Positions 6,169 through 34,562 of a stretch of DNA of 36,092 nucleotides are shown one piece after another. The notes below the pieces were generated by a model, which saw only the letters and a program-made list of their open reading frames with translations, was not told where the DNA came from and did no database searches. Origin of the DNA: a virus. The translations under genes were made by a program, and so were the position numbers. The DNA lies in the IMG/VR virus record IMGVR_UViG_3300010885_063454, positions 1 to 36,092 of that record; one strand, written 5' to 3'. Position 1 is the stretch's first letter. Every line of letters begins with the position of its first letter.

Positions 6169-6801
6169 ATGAACGACATAGAAAAACTTATAAGCGACAA
6201 TAAAAAGCTCATAGAGCTTGAGGCGTCGAGGTATGCCACGAATCTACCCACCATCACTGTACAGATTGAAGCTTACCGGTTAGCCAGAGAGGCTGCCAAG
6301 TCTTACAATCCAGACTCAGGCTATAAGTTCAGTACCCACCTAGTGAACAGTCTGAAGAAGCTTTCAAGAATGTCTACACGCTATGGGGGGGTTATTCGTG
6401 TACCTGAAAATACACAGTTTGGAGTTAATAAGATACAGAAAGTAGAAAAAGATCTCGAGCATGCCTTGGGCAGAGCCCCGACTATCGAAGAGATCTCTCA
6501 CCACAGCGGGTTTAGTGTTAAATCAACTGTGAGTATGTTGAAGACAAAGAAGGCCAGCACAGGATTATCCTCTTTGTTTGAAGCTCCTGTACTCTTAAAC
6601 AGCGAGAACGATGAATGGGTCCAGTTCGTGTATCATGATTTATCAGATATAGATAAACAGGTATTTGAACATATGACCGGCTTTGGAAACAAAAAGATAC
6701 TAGACAATGCTTCAATTGCCAAGAAATTAAATTTGTCTACGAGTACATTAAATAATAGAATAAGGTTAATGAACTCTACACTATCTAAAGGCTGGAAATA
6801 A
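6169..6801 (+). CDS. Phage-encoded sigma-70 family RNA polymerase sigma factor
   Basis: A 210-residue protein with sigma regions in order. Region 2 is at about residues 36-70, with 'YNPDSGYKFSTHL' equivalent to the usual Y-D-P-x-x-G-x-K-F-S-T-Y motif and a following helix. A region 3-like segment at 76-125 has the IRVP motif, then 'LGRAPTIEEIS' and 'SGFSVKSTVSML'. A region 4 helix-turn-helix lies at 157-208 ('NASIAKKLNLSTSTLNNRIR'). Region 1 is missing, as in short alternative sigmas. It would bind host core polymerase and redirect it, most likely to phage late promoters. It lies 3 bases after the hub gene and 1 base before the next gene, so it is expressed within the tail operon, an unusual place for a regulator. 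Confidence 0.8.
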   Translation: MNDIEKLISDNKKLIELEASRYATNLPTITVQIEAYRLAREAAKSYNPDSGYKFSTHLVNSLKKLSRMSTRYGGVIRVPENTQFGVNKIQKVEKDLEHALGRAPTIEEISHHSGFSVKSTVSMLKTKKASTGLSSLFEAPVLLNSENDEWVQFVYHDLSDIDKQVFEHMTGFGNKKILDNASIAKKLNLSTSTLNNRIRLMNSTLSKGWK

Positions 6802-23609: not shown

Positions 23610-23639
23610 TTGAATTTAAGGGTCTTTTTATGGTATAAT
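23610..23639 (+). promoter_or_regulatory. Promoter of the tmRNA gene
   Basis: TTGAAT (23610-23615), an 18-bp spacer, and TATAAT (23634-23639) preceded by the extended -10 dinucleotide TG (23631-23632). This is the best sigma70-type promoter in the window. Initiation near 23646 would give a 5' leader of about 40 bases, removed by RNase P at 23688. Confidence 0.7.
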
Positions 23640-23687
23640 ACTATGAATACCCTCAAAGGTTTGCTTAGCAAATTTTTGTTAGTTTTA

Positions 23688-24094
23688 GGGCCCGTACTGG
23701 TTTCGACTGAGAGTTGGAATTATAGACAGCATGCCGAGGAAGTCTGGTTGGCCTCGTTAAAACATCTGGACAAACAAATAAATGCAAACGAAAATTCGTT
23801 CGCTATGACGGTGGAAGAAGCTGACGCGCTATTGAACTCTTTCGAGTTTGAAGACGCTGAAGCCCTCGCTGCTTAGTCTACCTGAAATGGACACTATTAA
23901 AGTTTCAGGAAAAAAATCAATAGGTTGAAAGCTATGCTGTAAAGCTTTCATAGAAAGAGTACAGTAAGAGTCGATACTTATATATCGAACGGTTGGCTGC
24001 TAGCCTTGATGACTGTAATATTCTAATCCAGCTAAGCATGTAGAAGTTTATAGTGAAAGCGTTCAGGACAGGGGTTCGACTCCCCTCGGGTCCA
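23688..24094 (+). ncRNA. ssrA: Transfer-messenger RNA (tmRNA), one-piece, phage-encoded
   Basis: A 407-base RNA. The acceptor arm GGGCCCG (23688-23694) pairs with CGGGTCC (24087-24093), and A 24094 is the discriminator. The T arm is GGGG-TTCGACT-CCCC (24071-24085 region). The 5' domain carries the conserved 'CTGGTTTCGAC' block and the 'GCATGCCGAGG...GGTTGGCCTCGT' pseudoknot 1 sequence, closely like bacterial tmRNAs. The resume codon is GCA at 23784 and the tag ends at TAG 23874. The region 23880-24060 holds several helices expected for pseudoknots 2-4. CCA is not encoded (the bases after A are CTT). Function: rescue of stalled ribosomes by trans-translation and addition of a degradation tag. 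A 88-codon frame across this locus is not a protein gene. The form is one-piece, not permuted. Confidence 0.95.
23784..23876 (+). other. tmRNA tag reading frame, 30 codons plus stop
   Basis: Reading from the GCA resume codon, the tag begins ANENSFAM and ends EALAA before TAG. It is 30 residues long, about three times the E. coli tag (10 residues). The ALAA end matches the ClpXP-type degron, and the ANENSFA start is like ordinary tags, so the extra length is an acidic internal insert of roughly 20 residues with Glu, Asp, Leu and Phe. The alanine charged on the tmRNA precedes these 30. Confidence 0.85.
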
Positions 24095-24107
24095 CTTTTT
24101 TAGTGGA
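24091..24107 (+). other. Hairpin overlapping the tmRNA 3' end
   Basis: TCCACT (24091-24096), loop of five T, AGTGGA (24102-24107): a perfect 6-bp stem that uses the 3' strand of the tmRNA acceptor arm (TCC and the discriminator A). In the precursor it competes with the mature acceptor pairing. No U-tract follows, so it is not a terminator. Confidence 0.55.
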
Positions 24108-24236
24108 GAATCTCATTGCGAACCGTTCCCAGTTACGTTAAACTGGGTGGTGGAGGTGTAAGAGAAATCTTACACCCTAGACGACCAGGCGTCTTTAAAA
24201 ATCCTGGACCTTTTGGTGTTGGGTGTTCATGGTTAG
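24108..24236 (+). ncRNA. Structured trailer between tmRNA and terminator
   Basis: No reading frame of note lies here. Two perfect hairpins stand out: CCCAGTT/AACTGGG with a 6-base loop (24128-24147), and GGTGTAAGA/TCTTACACC with a GAAA tetraloop (24155-24176, 9 bp). A weaker CCAGG/CCTGG stem is at 24185-24207. The run may be a processed 3' trailer of the tmRNA transcript or a separate small RNA. No tRNA cloverleaf or T-loop was found in it. Confidence 0.4.
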
Positions 24237-24277
24237 CCTCTCCTCGTACATTCGTGTACGGGGAGAGGTATTCTTTT
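24237..24277 (+). terminator. Strong intrinsic terminator of the tmRNA unit
   Basis: A 14-bp stem (24237-24250 with 24255-24268; one G-T pair) closed by a TTCG tetraloop, followed by a T-rich tract TATTCTTTT. The T-tract reaches the stop codon of the convergent gene at 24276. On the minus strand no U-tract follows, so it works for plus-strand transcripts only. Confidence 0.85.
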
Positions 24278-30465: not shown

Positions 30466-30985
30466 CCCGTATGTAAAGCGAGCGAGAGGTAGGCCTAAAG
30501 GAGCTAAAAATAAGGTACGTAGTCTTCTGACTCCTGAGGATACCCTACCCAAGCGGGGAAGAGGTAGACCTAAGGGAGCAAAGAATAAGGTAAAACTTCC
30601 GGAGGTGGAAGGTGATCTTGTCGTCGTTAAATACAAGATAAAGGAAGAAGAGCCCTCGCCAGTTACAGGTAAAAAGAGAGGCCGTCCTAGAAAGCTCCCG
30701 ACGCAAGACGCCCCGGTAAGTGAACCTAAGGTTATTGCCCCAGCGGAATCATTAGATTCGCTAGAGAACCATCCACTACTTCAGGTTGTAAAATGGTTGG
30801 AGAAGACCATGCACCAGACAGAGCTGGATTATTATCGCAGAAGAGCCAGTCGGAACAGTGTGTCTCTACAATGCTCGAAGGCGTTAGACATCCTAGGATT
30901 CTTTAATGTACAGAATTCTGAGATTTGCAAACAGATCAAAAAAAACAACTTCATAGCATCTAATTCAAATGGACTTCATAACTAA
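30404..30985 (+). CDS. AT-hook DNA-binding protein
   Basis: A 193-residue protein with three AT-hook motifs: 'RARGRPKGAKNK' (26-37), 'RGRGRPKGAKNK' (51-62) and 'KRGRPRK' (91-97). AT-hooks insert into the minor groove of A/T-rich DNA. The first two are near-perfect repeats at protein and DNA level. The last 70 residues are a helical domain of unknown fold ('ENHPLLQVVKWLEKTMHQ', 'YYRRRASRNS'). It starts inside the 56-residue gene and overlaps the following ATPase gene by 17 bases. It might organise phage DNA, or act in packaging beside terL; that is unproven. The ATG gives the full three-hook protein and no better start is seen. Confidence 0.75.
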   Translation: MTGKLEKKDSETTLSQAAISDPYVKRARGRPKGAKNKVRSLLTPEDTLPKRGRGRPKGAKNKVKLPEVEGDLVVVKYKIKEEEPSPVTGKKRGRPRKLPTQDAPVSEPKVIAPAESLDSLENHPLLQVVKWLEKTMHQTELDYYRRRASRNSVSLQCSKALDILGFFNVQNSEICKQIKKNNFIASNSNGLHN

Positions 30986-31985
30986 AGTAAAAAACTACCA
31001 CAAGGCCAGCTATTCAGGGCTGTTTGTGTTAACTCACGAAGAAACACGGCTCACTAAAGAGTTACTTGAGCTTCGACAATTAGACCCGAGCGTATCCGTT
31101 CACGAATGGGATACACAGAATGGTCTGGTGTTCAGAGCAGGTCCTCACGAGATCTCCCATCCTACGGAAGATACCAAGGTGACCACAGACCTCCTCAAAT
31201 ACATCCAAAGCTACAGACATGGGAATACTGTGTTTGTACTAAAGGATTTTCATCTACACTTCGATAAAGTGATAAACATCCGGATGCTGCGTAATGCTTG
31301 GAATAGCATGAAGCGCTTACGGAATATGATTATATTTGTAGGTCATAAGTTTCTTGTTCCTGGTGAGCTTCAGAAGGAGATTCAGTTATTAGATTATGCG
31401 TTGCCTGATGAAACAGCCATTGCAGAACGTCTAGTCTTCATTAAAGACAGTATTAATAAAGAGCTGGGAGAAGCATCTAGACCCTTGCTGGAGATTGAAG
31501 AAGCGGTCGCTGAGTCTGCTGTAGAGGCAGCTAAAGGTATGACCTATTTCGAAGTCGAGAATGCCTTTTCCGTGGCGTTAATCACAGCCAGGAAATTTGA
31601 CAACAACTTCGTAGAATCAGTGTTCCAGGAAAAAATTGCCCAGCTCAAAAAGAATGGGTTGCTGACCTACATGGAGCCGAATATCAGCTTCGATAATGTG
31701 GGAGGCATGCAGGGGCTGAAGAAGTGGTTAACGGCTCGCAAGAATGCGTATAGCAAAGATGCGCGAGATTATAATCTGCCGATGCCAAAGGGCATGTTGC
31801 TGGCTAGTGTTCCAGGTACAGGCAAAAGTCTTATTTGCAAGGCTATTGCCAAAGAGTTCGACTGTCCGTTGTTCGCCTTGGATATTGGCAGCATCTTCGA
31901 CTCGCTTGTAGGCAACAGCGAACGAAACATGCGCGAGATGATCAAGACTGTAGAGAGTATTGGTAAGTGTGTCATTCTGATCGAT
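30969..31985 (+). CDS. Ycf46-like AAA ATPase, exon 1 (residues 1-339)
   Basis: First exon of a 529-residue protein completed at 32825-33397. The N-terminal 220 residues ('SGLFVLTHEETRLTKELLEL', 'NTVFVLKDFHLHF', 'IIFVGHKFLVPGEL') resemble the N-terminal domain of Ycf46/SpoVK-type AAA proteins of cyanobacteria, plastids and phages. The AAA module begins at 'SFDNVGGMQGLKKWL'. Walker A is SVPGTGKS (280-287), whose first Gly is replaced by Ser. The exon ends '..VILID', the first part of Walker B. The TAA right after it (31986-31988) is the first base-triplet of the intron, not a real stop. Confidence 0.85.
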
Positions 31986-32824
31986 TAAATTTAGTTGATC
32001 TAAAATTCAGTTAATTGCTGGGATATCCTTAGAGCCTGTACGACTACAACGTAACAAGTAATTGTAAGCGTGAACGTTTGAAAACATACAGGATTGGGCA
32101 ATCAGCAGCCGAGCCTCCTAACGGAGGAAGGTTCAACGATCAGTCGCAAGACGTAGAAGTTAGCAACTTCGAAAAACTGAAAGTTTCTCTTGAAAAGCTT
32201 TTCAACTCTAGGTAGATTATAACTATGAAACCTTGGAGTAAAAAAGCAGATAAGTGCGTAGTTTGCAACACAGTTGAACGTAGACATATGGCAAAAGGGT
32301 TATGTGTGTATTGCTATTTAAAACAGCATCACAGTAACCCTGCGAATAAGACCAAGGTAAAGGAGCAAAAAAACAAACACTACCTAGATAAGCAGAAGCC
32401 TATAGCTAAAGAAAAACGAGAATTACGTTATTTCAGCGGCTATCGGCAGTCTGTGTTATCTAGGGATGGTGAGACTTGCCGTAACTGCTCTAAATTTGGT
32501 AATATTGTACATCATATTGACGGTAATGGGAGAAACAGCAAAACTCCGAATAACAATATGAATAATTTAATTACCTTATGTCGCACCTGTCATGCACAGG
32601 AACACAGAGAACAGTTACTCTCTAGTAGGTTTAAACCTGGAAGAGATGGCTGGGCCAAAAATCATGAGGCGTGCGTTCTGTGTGGTAAGTCAGACAGTAA
32701 GCATAACTCCTCAGGACGTTGTGCTAGATGTGTTGCAAGAATTAGAAGAGAAACTAAGATATGATCTGAACTGTATGGAGACATACAGAGAATATACGGA
32801 AGCGGTATATTCGTAACATTATTG
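31986..32824 (+). mobile_element. Group I intron in the AAA ATPase gene, with HNH endonuclease
   Basis: An 839-base intron. The 5' splice site follows T 31985, and the last intron base is G 32824, as group I requires. P1 is visible: exon GATCGAT (31979-31985) pairs with GTTGATC (31994-32000), with the U-G wobble at the splice site. P10 is possible between AATTT (31988-31992) and exon 2 AAATT (32826-32830). The core shows CCTGTA/TACAGG (32035-32040 / 32087-32092), 'CAATCAGCAGCCGAGC' (32099-32114), a CCTCC-TAAC-GGAGG hairpin (32114-32127) and 'GGTTCAACGATCAG'. Removing it joins GAT to GAA and restores the reading frame and Walker B. Confidence 0.88.
32225..32764 (+). CDS. HNH homing endonuclease inside intron 1
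   Basis: A 179-residue protein. The HNH core is at about 79-127: C85/C88, H96-H97, N114, C119/C122-H123 and H127, with 'VHHIDGNGRN' and 'LITLCRTCH' as landmarks. It is flanked by two extra zinc-finger-like Cys4 units (C11, C14, C27, C30 and C150, C153, C166, C169), which may help target recognition. Such enzymes cut the intron-less allele so that the intron is copied in. The gene lies after the intron core and ends 60 bases before the 3' splice site, leaving room for the P9 region. Confidence 0.85.
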   Translation: MKPWSKKADKCVVCNTVERRHMAKGLCVYCYLKQHHSNPANKTKVKEQKNKHYLDKQKPIAKEKRELRYFSGYRQSVLSRDGETCRNCSKFGNIVHHIDGNGRNSKTPNNNMNNLITLCRTCHAQEHREQLLSSRFKPGRDGWAKNHEACVLCGKSDSKHNSSGRCARCVARIRRETKI

Positions 32825-33397
32825 GAAATTGAGAAGTCACTCAGTAATAGTGCAGTCAGTGGAGGTGGAGATAGCGGCGTCAGTAGCCGTATCTTTGGTA
32901 CATTCCTCAGCTGGTTAAATGACCGAAAGAATCCTGCATTCATTGTAGCCACAACAAACGATCATACAAAGCTGCCTGCTGCACTAATCCGCAAGGGTCG
33001 CTTTGATCAGTTGTTCTGGGTAGACCTACCTACCAGTGAAGAACGTAAAGAAATCTTCAATGTGGTTATTAAAAAATATAACCGCGAACCAAAAGACTTC
33101 AGCCTCAACACACTCGTGAGCGGCTCGAAAGACTTTACAGGTGCGGAGATTGAAGAAGTGTTCAAGGATGCCTTATACAAGGCTTTCGATAGCGGGCAGG
33201 AGGTTAACGACAGTCATGTAATGGAGGTGCTTGCGGAATTCATTCCGTTCGCCACAAGTCATGAAGAAGAGTTAAAGATCATGCGTAGACAAGCACAAGG
33301 AAAGCTTGTGATGGTTACAAGTAAAGGAGATCCAATTGCAGATGTTCAAAAGAACATGCGCAAACTCAGTATCGCAATCGGTAACGACGAAGAATAA
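32825..33397 (+). CDS. Ycf46-like AAA ATPase, exon 2 (residues 340-529)
   Basis: This exon continues Walker B with 'EIEKSL'. Sensor 1 is 'FIVATTNDHTKLP', the arginine-finger segment is 'IRKGRFDQLF', and the lid contains 'KDFTGAEIEEVFKDALYKAF'. The C-terminal 50 residues are a charged helical tail. Spliced to exon 1 it gives a complete, standard single-AAA ATPase. A TTG at 32822 is intron sequence and not a start. The next gene begins 13 bases after its stop. Its neighbours (DUF3150-like and Ycf35/DUF1257-like) indicate a functional module, probably a hexameric remodelling machine with an unknown substrate. Confidence 0.85.
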   Translation, partial: EIEKSLSNSAVSGGGDSGVSSRIFGTFLSWLNDRKNPAFIVATTNDHTKLPAALIRKGRFDQLFWVDLPTSEERKEIFNVVIKKYNREPKDFSLNTLVSGSKDFTGAEIEEVFKDALYKAFDSGQEVNDSHVMEVLAEFIPFATSHEEELKIMRRQAQGKLVMVTSKGDPIADVQKNMRKLSIAIGNDEE

Positions 33398-33475: not shown

Positions 33476-34562
33476 AATATTGTATTGTAAGTTGTGAAGA
33501 ACTATGGCGTATTTCATATATGCCAGCTAAAAAAATAATAGACCTAGAAAAACTCAAGAAAGACTACGCCTGTGGAAAGTCACTAAACTCTTTACAGGTG
33601 GAGTATGCTTGCACACGACCCACTTTATCTAAATACCTAAAGAAGGCTGGTGTGGAAGTTAAGTCAAATAACTACAGGTATAGTTATAATACCGAACTAT
33701 TTAAGTGTGTTGACGACGAACAACAGTCTTATTGGTTAGGTTTTCTATATGCTGACGGTTATGTACAGAAAAGAAAACGTATAGAGTTAGCGTTAGCGAT
33801 GAAGGATGTCAAACATCTGGAAAAATACAGAGACTTTGTTTGCCCTGAATTACCTATCGAGACGAGGAAGATGACTGCTAGAGGTAAGCAATACTTGTGT
33901 GTTCGTGTTATTGTTTTTAACAAATTCTTACACGCAAGCATTGTATCCTTAGGATGCACAAACGCTAAGTCTAAAACACTAGTGTTTCCTAACACCTCAC
34001 AGGTACCTGAAAATTTACTACATCACTTTATTAGAGGTTACTTTGATGGTGATGGTAGTGTAAGCCTGGATGTTGCCAGGAATAATCTACATGTAGGGAT
34101 TGCAGGCACTGAGAAGTTCCTGGAGGCCCTTAACATCGTGCTTTTTCAGAATATTCCTAACTACACTCTGACAAAACTGTACAAACCAGCTAACTGTGAA
34201 ATGCACCTATTACAGAAAGGTGGAAATAAGCAGCTTAAAGGTTTGTATGATTATCTGTACAAAGACGCAACTGTGTTTCTCGAGAGAAAGAAAGAGGTCT
34301 TTAGCCAGTTCTACAACGAGCAATCTTGCCGCTCAATAGAGCAATCTATTGATGACAATCGAGGAAAAAATCTGGAAGGCTGAAATGCTAATCAGAGGTG
34401 AAGGTGCAGCAGAGCTGCCCCAGCCGCAACGCATAGGGAGTGAAAAGATATAATCTCCCCACGAGGCCTCGACACCCCTACGGGGTGAAAAGATATGCTG
34501 AGCTATACTGAAAAACAAGGTATAGAACTACGGGATAAAAAGCCTGTAGGATAACAACACTG
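33476..34562 (+). mobile_element. Second group I intron, carrying a LAGLIDADG endonuclease
   Basis: About 1087 bases; the 5' end is 33476 or 33479 and the last base is G 34562. A short P1 can form between exon '..GGTAAT' and GTTGT (33491-33495). A 7-bp hairpin, GGCGTAT/ATATGCC (33506-33524), follows and covers the endonuclease ATG. Most of the catalytic core must lie after the reading frame (34384-34562), where a GCAGC/GCTGC stem, two 'GTGAAAAGATAT' elements (the second like the S strand of P7) and a CTATAC/GTATAG P9-type hairpin (34503-34526 region) are seen. The exact splice sites and subgroup are not settled from sequence alone. Confidence 0.7.
33520..34383 (+). CDS. LAGLIDADG homing endonuclease inside intron 2
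   Basis: A 287-residue protein with both dodecapeptide-type motifs: 'YWLGFLYADG' (71-80) and 'HFIRGYFDGDGSVS' (169-182), each with the catalytic Asp (D79 and D176/D178). Two motifs in one chain make it a monomeric enzyme. The N-terminus has a helix-turn-helix-like segment ('SLNSLQVEYACTRPTLSKYLKK', about 21-42), likely a DNA-recognition extra. Basic residues are frequent. It is unrelated to the HNH enzyme in the first intron, so the two introns were invaded separately. Confidence 0.88.
   Translation: MPAKKIIDLEKLKKDYACGKSLNSLQVEYACTRPTLSKYLKKAGVEVKSNNYRYSYNTELFKCVDDEQQSYWLGFLYADGYVQKRKRIELALAMKDVKHLEKYRDFVCPELPIETRKMTARGKQYLCVRVIVFNKFLHASIVSLGCTNAKSKTLVFPNTSQVPENLLHHFIRGYFDGDGSVSLDVARNNLHVGIAGTEKFLEALNIVLFQNIPNYTLTKLYKPANCEMHLLQKGGNKQLKGLYDYLYKDATVFLERKKEVFSQFYNEQSCRSIEQSIDDNRGKNLEG

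Follow-up and report, generated by a model that had tools for sequence, protein, structure and literature searches.

The DNA analysed here (hereafter the window) is a complete 36,092-base viral record from IMG/VR (IMGVR_UViG_3300010885_063454), and its sole tmRNA gene lies on the plus strand together with the following features:

23610..23639, plus strand: sigma-70-like extended -10 promoter candidate (consensus scan)
23654..23678, plus strand: terminator-like hairpin, downstream of the promoter candidate and upstream of the tmRNA (consensus scan)
23688..24095, plus strand: one-piece tmRNA gene, ssrA (ARAGORN; Rfam RF00023; G3-U70 pair and T-arm read directly)
23784..23876, plus strand: tag reading frame, 30 codons from the resume codon GCA plus a TAG stop (ARAGORN, RF00023; frame kept in relatives)
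23799..23849, plus strand: conserved inner module, tag residues 6-22, FAMTVEEADALLNSFEF (codon diversity, pN/pS)
23811..23840, plus strand: predicted helix, tag residues 10-19, VEEADALLNS (AlphaFold2)
23865..23873, plus strand: C-terminal Leu-Ala-Ala, a ClpX-type end (ARAGORN; such ends correlate with ClpX/Lon in Omnitrophota)
24236..24269, plus strand: downstream intrinsic-terminator-like hairpin (15 pairs, 8 of them G-C, with a T-rich tail)

A sequence-only reading of this locus had described a complete one-piece tmRNA, and ARAGORN and RF00023 agreed on this. The covariance model, which that reading had proposed as a check, matched positions 23688-24097 with 149.8 bits (E 4e-59; gathering score 47) over its full length (1-374) and aligned the resume region with high posterior. 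The acceptor stem, as read from the sequence, is GGGCCCG/CGGGTCC with a G3-U70 pair, which is the alanine identity pair of the tRNA-like domain, and it is followed by A73, while the full CCA end is absent from the encoded sequence. The predicted fold is more stable than that of shuffled sequences (z = -3.2). Upstream, the promoter candidate consists of TTGAAT-18-TATAAT with a TG ahead of the -10 element and matches 10 of 12 consensus positions, in a scan that found 3 sites when 1.3 were expected by chance. Since the hairpin at 23654-23678 separates this candidate from the tmRNA, the gene is only possibly transcribed on its own: of the extended -10 promoter and terminator initially attributed to it, the consensus match and the downstream hairpin were both found, the former with the other hairpin between it and the gene.

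ARAGORN confirmed the previously noted 30-codon frame, which runs from GCA at 23784 to 23873, is followed by TAG at 23874-23876 (gene positions 97-189) and encodes the tag ANENSFAMTVEEADALLNSFEFEDAEALAA. As that reading had also noticed, the head (ANENSFA) and the tail (ALAA) of the tag look normal and flank an acidic block, and we can add that this block is conserved, selected at the peptide level and probably helical. Indeed, AlphaFold2 run on an alignment of 12 tags predicted a short helix at residues 10-19, with a mean pLDDT of 86 over residues 11-20, which suggests that the inner module is helical, as far as a prediction for an isolated peptide goes; the S/T-x-x-E start of the module is compatible with a helix N-cap. 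The tag ends with EALAA and thus carries the C-terminal LAA of ClpXP-dependent ssrA degrons. Compared with a canonical one-piece tmRNA (RF00023, for example that of E. coli), the architecture, the G3-U70 stem, the resume codon context and the LAA end are the same, whereas the tag has 30 residues with a conserved, predicted inner helix instead of about 10.

Related phages were then selected by their terminase, blind to the tag, which gave 43 loci (70-100% identical), and a tmRNA above the RF00023 cut-off was present in 22 of 39 such records. With one exception, their tags had 30-33 residues and were of the same kind as that of the window (for example AKSEFDFAPSVAEADAFLKAAGFVDAELLAA, VNNIDFAPSVEEADAVLATFGYADADAILAA, AASNETLAPSLAEADAILAKFGYADAELLAA and ANIEMAPSLAEADAILEATGFVDSEQLMAA); the exception (L041/L172) was long but divergent (AEDNTSALLAEATYIINNADEFLVEEVYEMAA). 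Several tags of relatives were missed or misplaced by ARAGORN, for which the correct frame still yielded a long tag; ARAGORN calls were corrected where the frame had been called downstream or shortened (L175, L208, L226 and several Omnitrophota). The resume codon was not placed elsewhere and no relative showed a frameshift, the terminase-located relatives retaining the frame in 19 unique cores. When the 12-tag alignment was used as a query, 70 viral-contig loci were retrieved, and translation of each gave the tag motif within a short frame that soon meets a stop; of the 20 that were scanned, 18 were RF00023 matches, and in the other two (L243 and L247) the available sequence ends shortly after the tag. 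Shared flanking proteins linked 59 of 71 loci, the remaining ones lying in other neighbourhoods, so that the trait appears to be inherited largely vertically within one large phage group and to have spread beyond it to some extent. The closest cultured terminase relatives, Salmonella phage Arash and Vibrio phage D69, had no tmRNA above the cut-off. SmpB was encoded in none of 27 related phage records and ClpP in only two, which argues that the host machinery, including host SmpB, would be needed. The two carriers of a ClpP-family protease among the long-tag phages are L284 and L285 (the records of L208 and L202).

The 56 unique cores of 17 codons, including that of the window, follow the pattern hydrophobic-A-[PM]-[ST]-[VL]-[AES]-E-A-[DE]-A-[ILVF]-L, and positions 2, 7, 8, 10 and 12 (A, E, A, A and L) are invariant. 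Gene diversity at the three codon positions was 0.25, 0.23 and 0.59, respectively, and the serine of the module is encoded by both AGY and TCN codons. In the 19 terminase-located cores, a set free of tag-search bias, pN/pS was 0.34 in frame but 1.35 and 1.81 in the two shifted frames. The inner module is therefore under purifying selection at the protein level and, since the signal is lost in shifted frames, it is the peptide that is conserved and not the RNA alone. A separate start of translation at the Met that is frequent in the module was also considered, and rejected because 25 of the 56 unique cores have F, Y or L there instead.

Long phage tags as such are already known. A search of viral contigs with a tmRNA 3'-end pattern, also blind to the tag, gave 37 loci with ordinary short tags as well as further families of long ones (the types AEDNTDAILAEAEYIFNNASEFLGGVEEEYLLAA and DNVFNVSENFLNEASVFSTRELAAA, together with AKAITNAVESVKSFVTNMAESFFGCEDELCLMAA). 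Among cultured phages, the Bxz1-type (cluster C) mycobacteriophages carry a tag of 25 residues (ATDTDATVTDAEIEAFFAEEAAALV), Phabba one of 26 (ANDNDATVTEADFAEIEAFANDSVLV) and Gordonia phage GodonK one of 25 (AEADVVVSDSDIAEIEAYANEAALV, frame read by eye), and GenBank records already annotate the 25-residue tag. Like the tmRNA of the window, these are phage-encoded and their 25-26-residue tags contain a core, A-E-I-E-A-[FY]; unlike it, they have a distinct sequence, an LV end and an unrelated host group. Tags of 9-15 residues were found in Streptomyces phages, phage G, cluster M phages and permuted two-piece phage tmRNAs. In the annotated phage records that were searched, the conserved A-E-A-D-A module did not turn up, a tblastn search of cultured phages with the tag returned nothing but one chance primase match, and a tag profile had no meaningful match among solved structures. 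The tmRNAs of Melnitz and pelagiphages are also phage-encoded and were proposed to aid takeover, but they are two-piece permuted molecules under a glutamine riboswitch (PMC9004378), and in phage Wildcat the tmRNA is the most highly expressed lytic gene (PMC7474061). Two further observations concern phage tmRNAs with other tags. At L301 and L320 (249-689), the tmRNA, whose tag is of the DNxFxVSENFLNE type, is directly followed by an HDV-like ribozyme (RF02682, 46.2 bits, above cut-off) that would cleave at its 3' end. In GodonK, the tmRNA is an unannotated molecule of 529 bases (L268, 145-673), in which an annotated tRNA-His (224-285) separates the 5' domain from the tag.

For comparison, a matched sample of bacterial genomes was searched with the same 3'-end pattern, and 103 of the 105 ARAGORN tags obtained had 9-16 residues. 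Of the two others, a 32-residue tag (L355) is probably an ARAGORN misplacement, and the one credible long tag, of 24 residues (ANNSYDVVAEAEAILAGAEAPALV), belongs to Candidatus Omnitrophota UBA10174, whose tmRNA, the only one above the cut-off in the genome, has an SmpB-like ORF close by on a chromosomal contig. Omnitrophota tags turned out to be mostly long and of several kinds, with at least 20 residues in 43 of 53 unique tags; they are very diverse and reach about 50 residues. The tag of the window, previously called exceptionally long, is thus exceptional against bacteria at large but not within its own phage group or next to Omnitrophota, and it is not a one-off: long tags are a group-wide trait of many phages and also occur in the Omnitrophota's own tmRNAs.

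Many Omnitrophota tags have the core in the form A-E-A-E-x-I. The core was held by 14 of the 53 Omnitrophota tags (0.10 expected in shuffles) and by 4 of 4 actinophage tags (0.04 expected), and 11 of the 53 Omnitrophota tags scored at least 5 bits with the phage profile (0.38 expected), counts that are not independent because tags within a set are related. Judged from the sequences, the similarity between phage and Omnitrophota tags exceeds what composition gives. Chromosomal Omnitrophota tags such as ANDNYDVVAEAEAILAGAEAPALV resemble the phage tags in being long and in their inner core V-A-E-A-[DE]-A-I-L-A, but they lack P-S/T before the core and F-G-[FYW] after it; those sharing the core end in LV, VA, LN and others, whereas the tag of the window ends in LAA, and their tmRNA is chromosomal (near smpB in UBA10174) instead of phage-encoded. 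Outside the tag, the nearest neighbours of the tmRNA backbones of the phage group were Verrucomicrobiota in 28 of 41 cases and Omnitrophota in 12, a weak tree signal that supports only a PVC-like backbone. The Verrucomicrobiota tags that were read are themselves short, with 9-18 residues in 52 loci that were nearly all Verrucomicrobiota and included the longest of 253 listed tmRNAs.

We also looked at the proteases of Omnitrophota genomes with known tags. ClpX was above cut-off in 6 of 55 and Lon in 5 of 55, in bins that may be incomplete, and most of the sampled Omnitrophota (G057-G342) were without both above the curated cut-offs. A tag ending in LAA or VAA was found in 8 of 8 genomes with ClpX or Lon compared with 1 of 47 with neither (Fisher p 7e-9, an overstated value, since related genomes are not independent and absences in metagenome bins may reflect incompleteness). 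Conversely, the A-E-A core was confined to genomes with neither protease (15 of 47 versus 0 of 8). Length alone does not follow the loss of ClpX, since three ClpX-bearing Omnitrophota have long tags. In a single-contig Omnitrophota genome of 1.43 Mb with the tag ANYNPVAEAESILAEDALHVPVITGTAPLVSILGY, ClpX, Lon and HslUV were not found, whereas ClpP, a ClpC-type ATPase and two FtsH-like genes were; this ATPase (827 aa) falls under the ClpA and ClpB cut-offs, and we read it as ClpC-type from its N-terminus and UVR-like middle. A precedent exists in Mollicutes, which lack ClpXP and have a longer tag that is read by Lon, and the E. coli tag is itself read weakly by ClpAP, Lon, FtsH and Prc (PMC9382460). 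The Mollicutes tags (Mesoplasma florum, mf-Lon) share with the present case their length, which in Mollicutes goes with a protease switch once ClpXP was lost (PMC9382460), while their sequence and end differ from those of the window tag. Lon is missing too from most core-sharing Omnitrophota, again in bins that may be incomplete, which argues against Lon as the reader there.

Considering these results together, we propose that the phage is a large, tailed one infecting uncultured bacteria, and that it brings along a tmRNA of its own, which would be charged with alanine through G3-U70, be loaded by host SmpB, release stalled ribosomes during infection and append the 30-residue tag to the broken protein. 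This tag would be bipartite, with an inner acidic helix built on an A-E-A-D-A-hydrophobic-Leu core and a C terminus of the LAA type (of the LV type in some relatives). The inner helix would be a recognition element kept by selection, most likely a handle for a route other than classical ClpX binding, with FtsH or ClpC-ClpP, the latter alone or helped by an adaptor, as candidate readers, and the LAA end would preserve ClpX-type recognition, so that the tag could be read by more than one AAA+ protease through two addresses. That the insert is a handle for a non-ClpX protease or adaptor, combined with an LAA end, is the best explanation overall, and we hold it with middling confidence; we infer the role of the helix, its reader, the benefit for the phage and the host, and it is by analogy that we extend the Omnitrophota protease findings to the phage tag. 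The idea that a longer tag may alter the choice of protease or adaptor, already put forward by the sequence-only reading, thus becomes the best supported one by way of the Mollicutes analogy and the Omnitrophota correlation, while an effect on host proteins during takeover, which that reading had also suggested, left no sign in the present results. A more general proposition, possible but on the doubtful side, would make A-E-[AI]-[DE]-x-hydrophobic, as a short acidic helix, a hitherto undescribed address for degradation in trans-translation, read by ClpC-ClpP or FtsH. Bacteria that have lost ClpX and Lon would use it as their principal address, and phages of several host groups would have inserted it between a normal head and tail to obtain a two-address tag. 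Our literature search found no paper on Omnitrophota tags, their loss of ClpX or phage tag inserts.

Other explanations have to be weighed against such a handle. The insert could be a mere spacer, a longer flexible tail helping AAA+ proteases such as FtsH to engage or an adaptor and ClpX to bind together, its sequence hardly mattering. Head and tail do look ordinary, other phage groups have tags of up to 25-34 residues that differ in sequence, and in DAS+4 tags a spacer at this very position, between the SspB and ClpX sites, accompanies adaptor-dependent degradation (PMC8138137). A spacer would however drift, whereas 5 of 17 core residues are invariant over the 56 unique sequences and amino-acid changes are strongly suppressed, making this explanation unlikely. 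We also see little probability in a tag that does not accelerate degradation but marks or stabilises truncated proteins, or shields them from host ClpXP, ribosome rescue then supplying no substrates to host proteolysis. Acidic helical tails could have a binding partner other than a protease and several relatives end in ELV or ALV, but most tags, that of the window among them, end in LAA or VAA, and the same core is used by the Omnitrophota chromosomal tmRNA, for which degradation is the default expectation. Another improbable explanation is that the tag was inherited from an Omnitrophota-like or other PVC host with the same long tag and has no special role in the phage. Such an origin would fit the core shared with Omnitrophota chromosomal tags and the Verrucomicrobiota- and Omnitrophota-like backbones; against it, the 12-tag query retrieved nothing related to the phage form A[PM][ST][VL][AE]EADA from the genomes of 84,980 bacterial and archaeal species, the backbones are closer to the short-tagged Verrucomicrobiota, and a search of 384 Omnitrophota genomes for the phage terminase was negative, a weak argument where a lytic phage is concerned. 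Finally, a constraint on the secondary structure of the tmRNA instead of the peptide is hardly credible, for although the fold is stabler than shuffles and the end of the tag frame sits in a helix in tmRNAs, the codon test (free third positions, two serine codon families, no signal in shifted frames) largely refutes it.

As to why some phages carry tmRNAs, a selected, conserved peptide within the tag means that the tag itself counts for these phages, beyond ribosome release. The inner module of 17 residues can be put to the test with ClpC-ClpP and FtsH as named candidate readers, and Omnitrophota tag ends that track ClpX or Lon would add to Mollicutes another example of a tag changing with the protease repertoire.

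Elsewhere in the window, a sigma-70-family factor (Pfam Sigma70_r3; 6169-6801) is encoded amid structural genes, and an RpoS-like sigma factor occupies a comparable place in Salmonella phage Arash. An AAA+ ATPase gene (30969-33397) breaks off in its Walker B motif (VILID) and apparently resumes at 32822 (EIEKSLSN); the interruption contains an HNH endonuclease ORF (32225-32764) and is probably an intron or a similar insertion. A LAGLIDADG ORF (33520-34383) comes after the interrupted gene.
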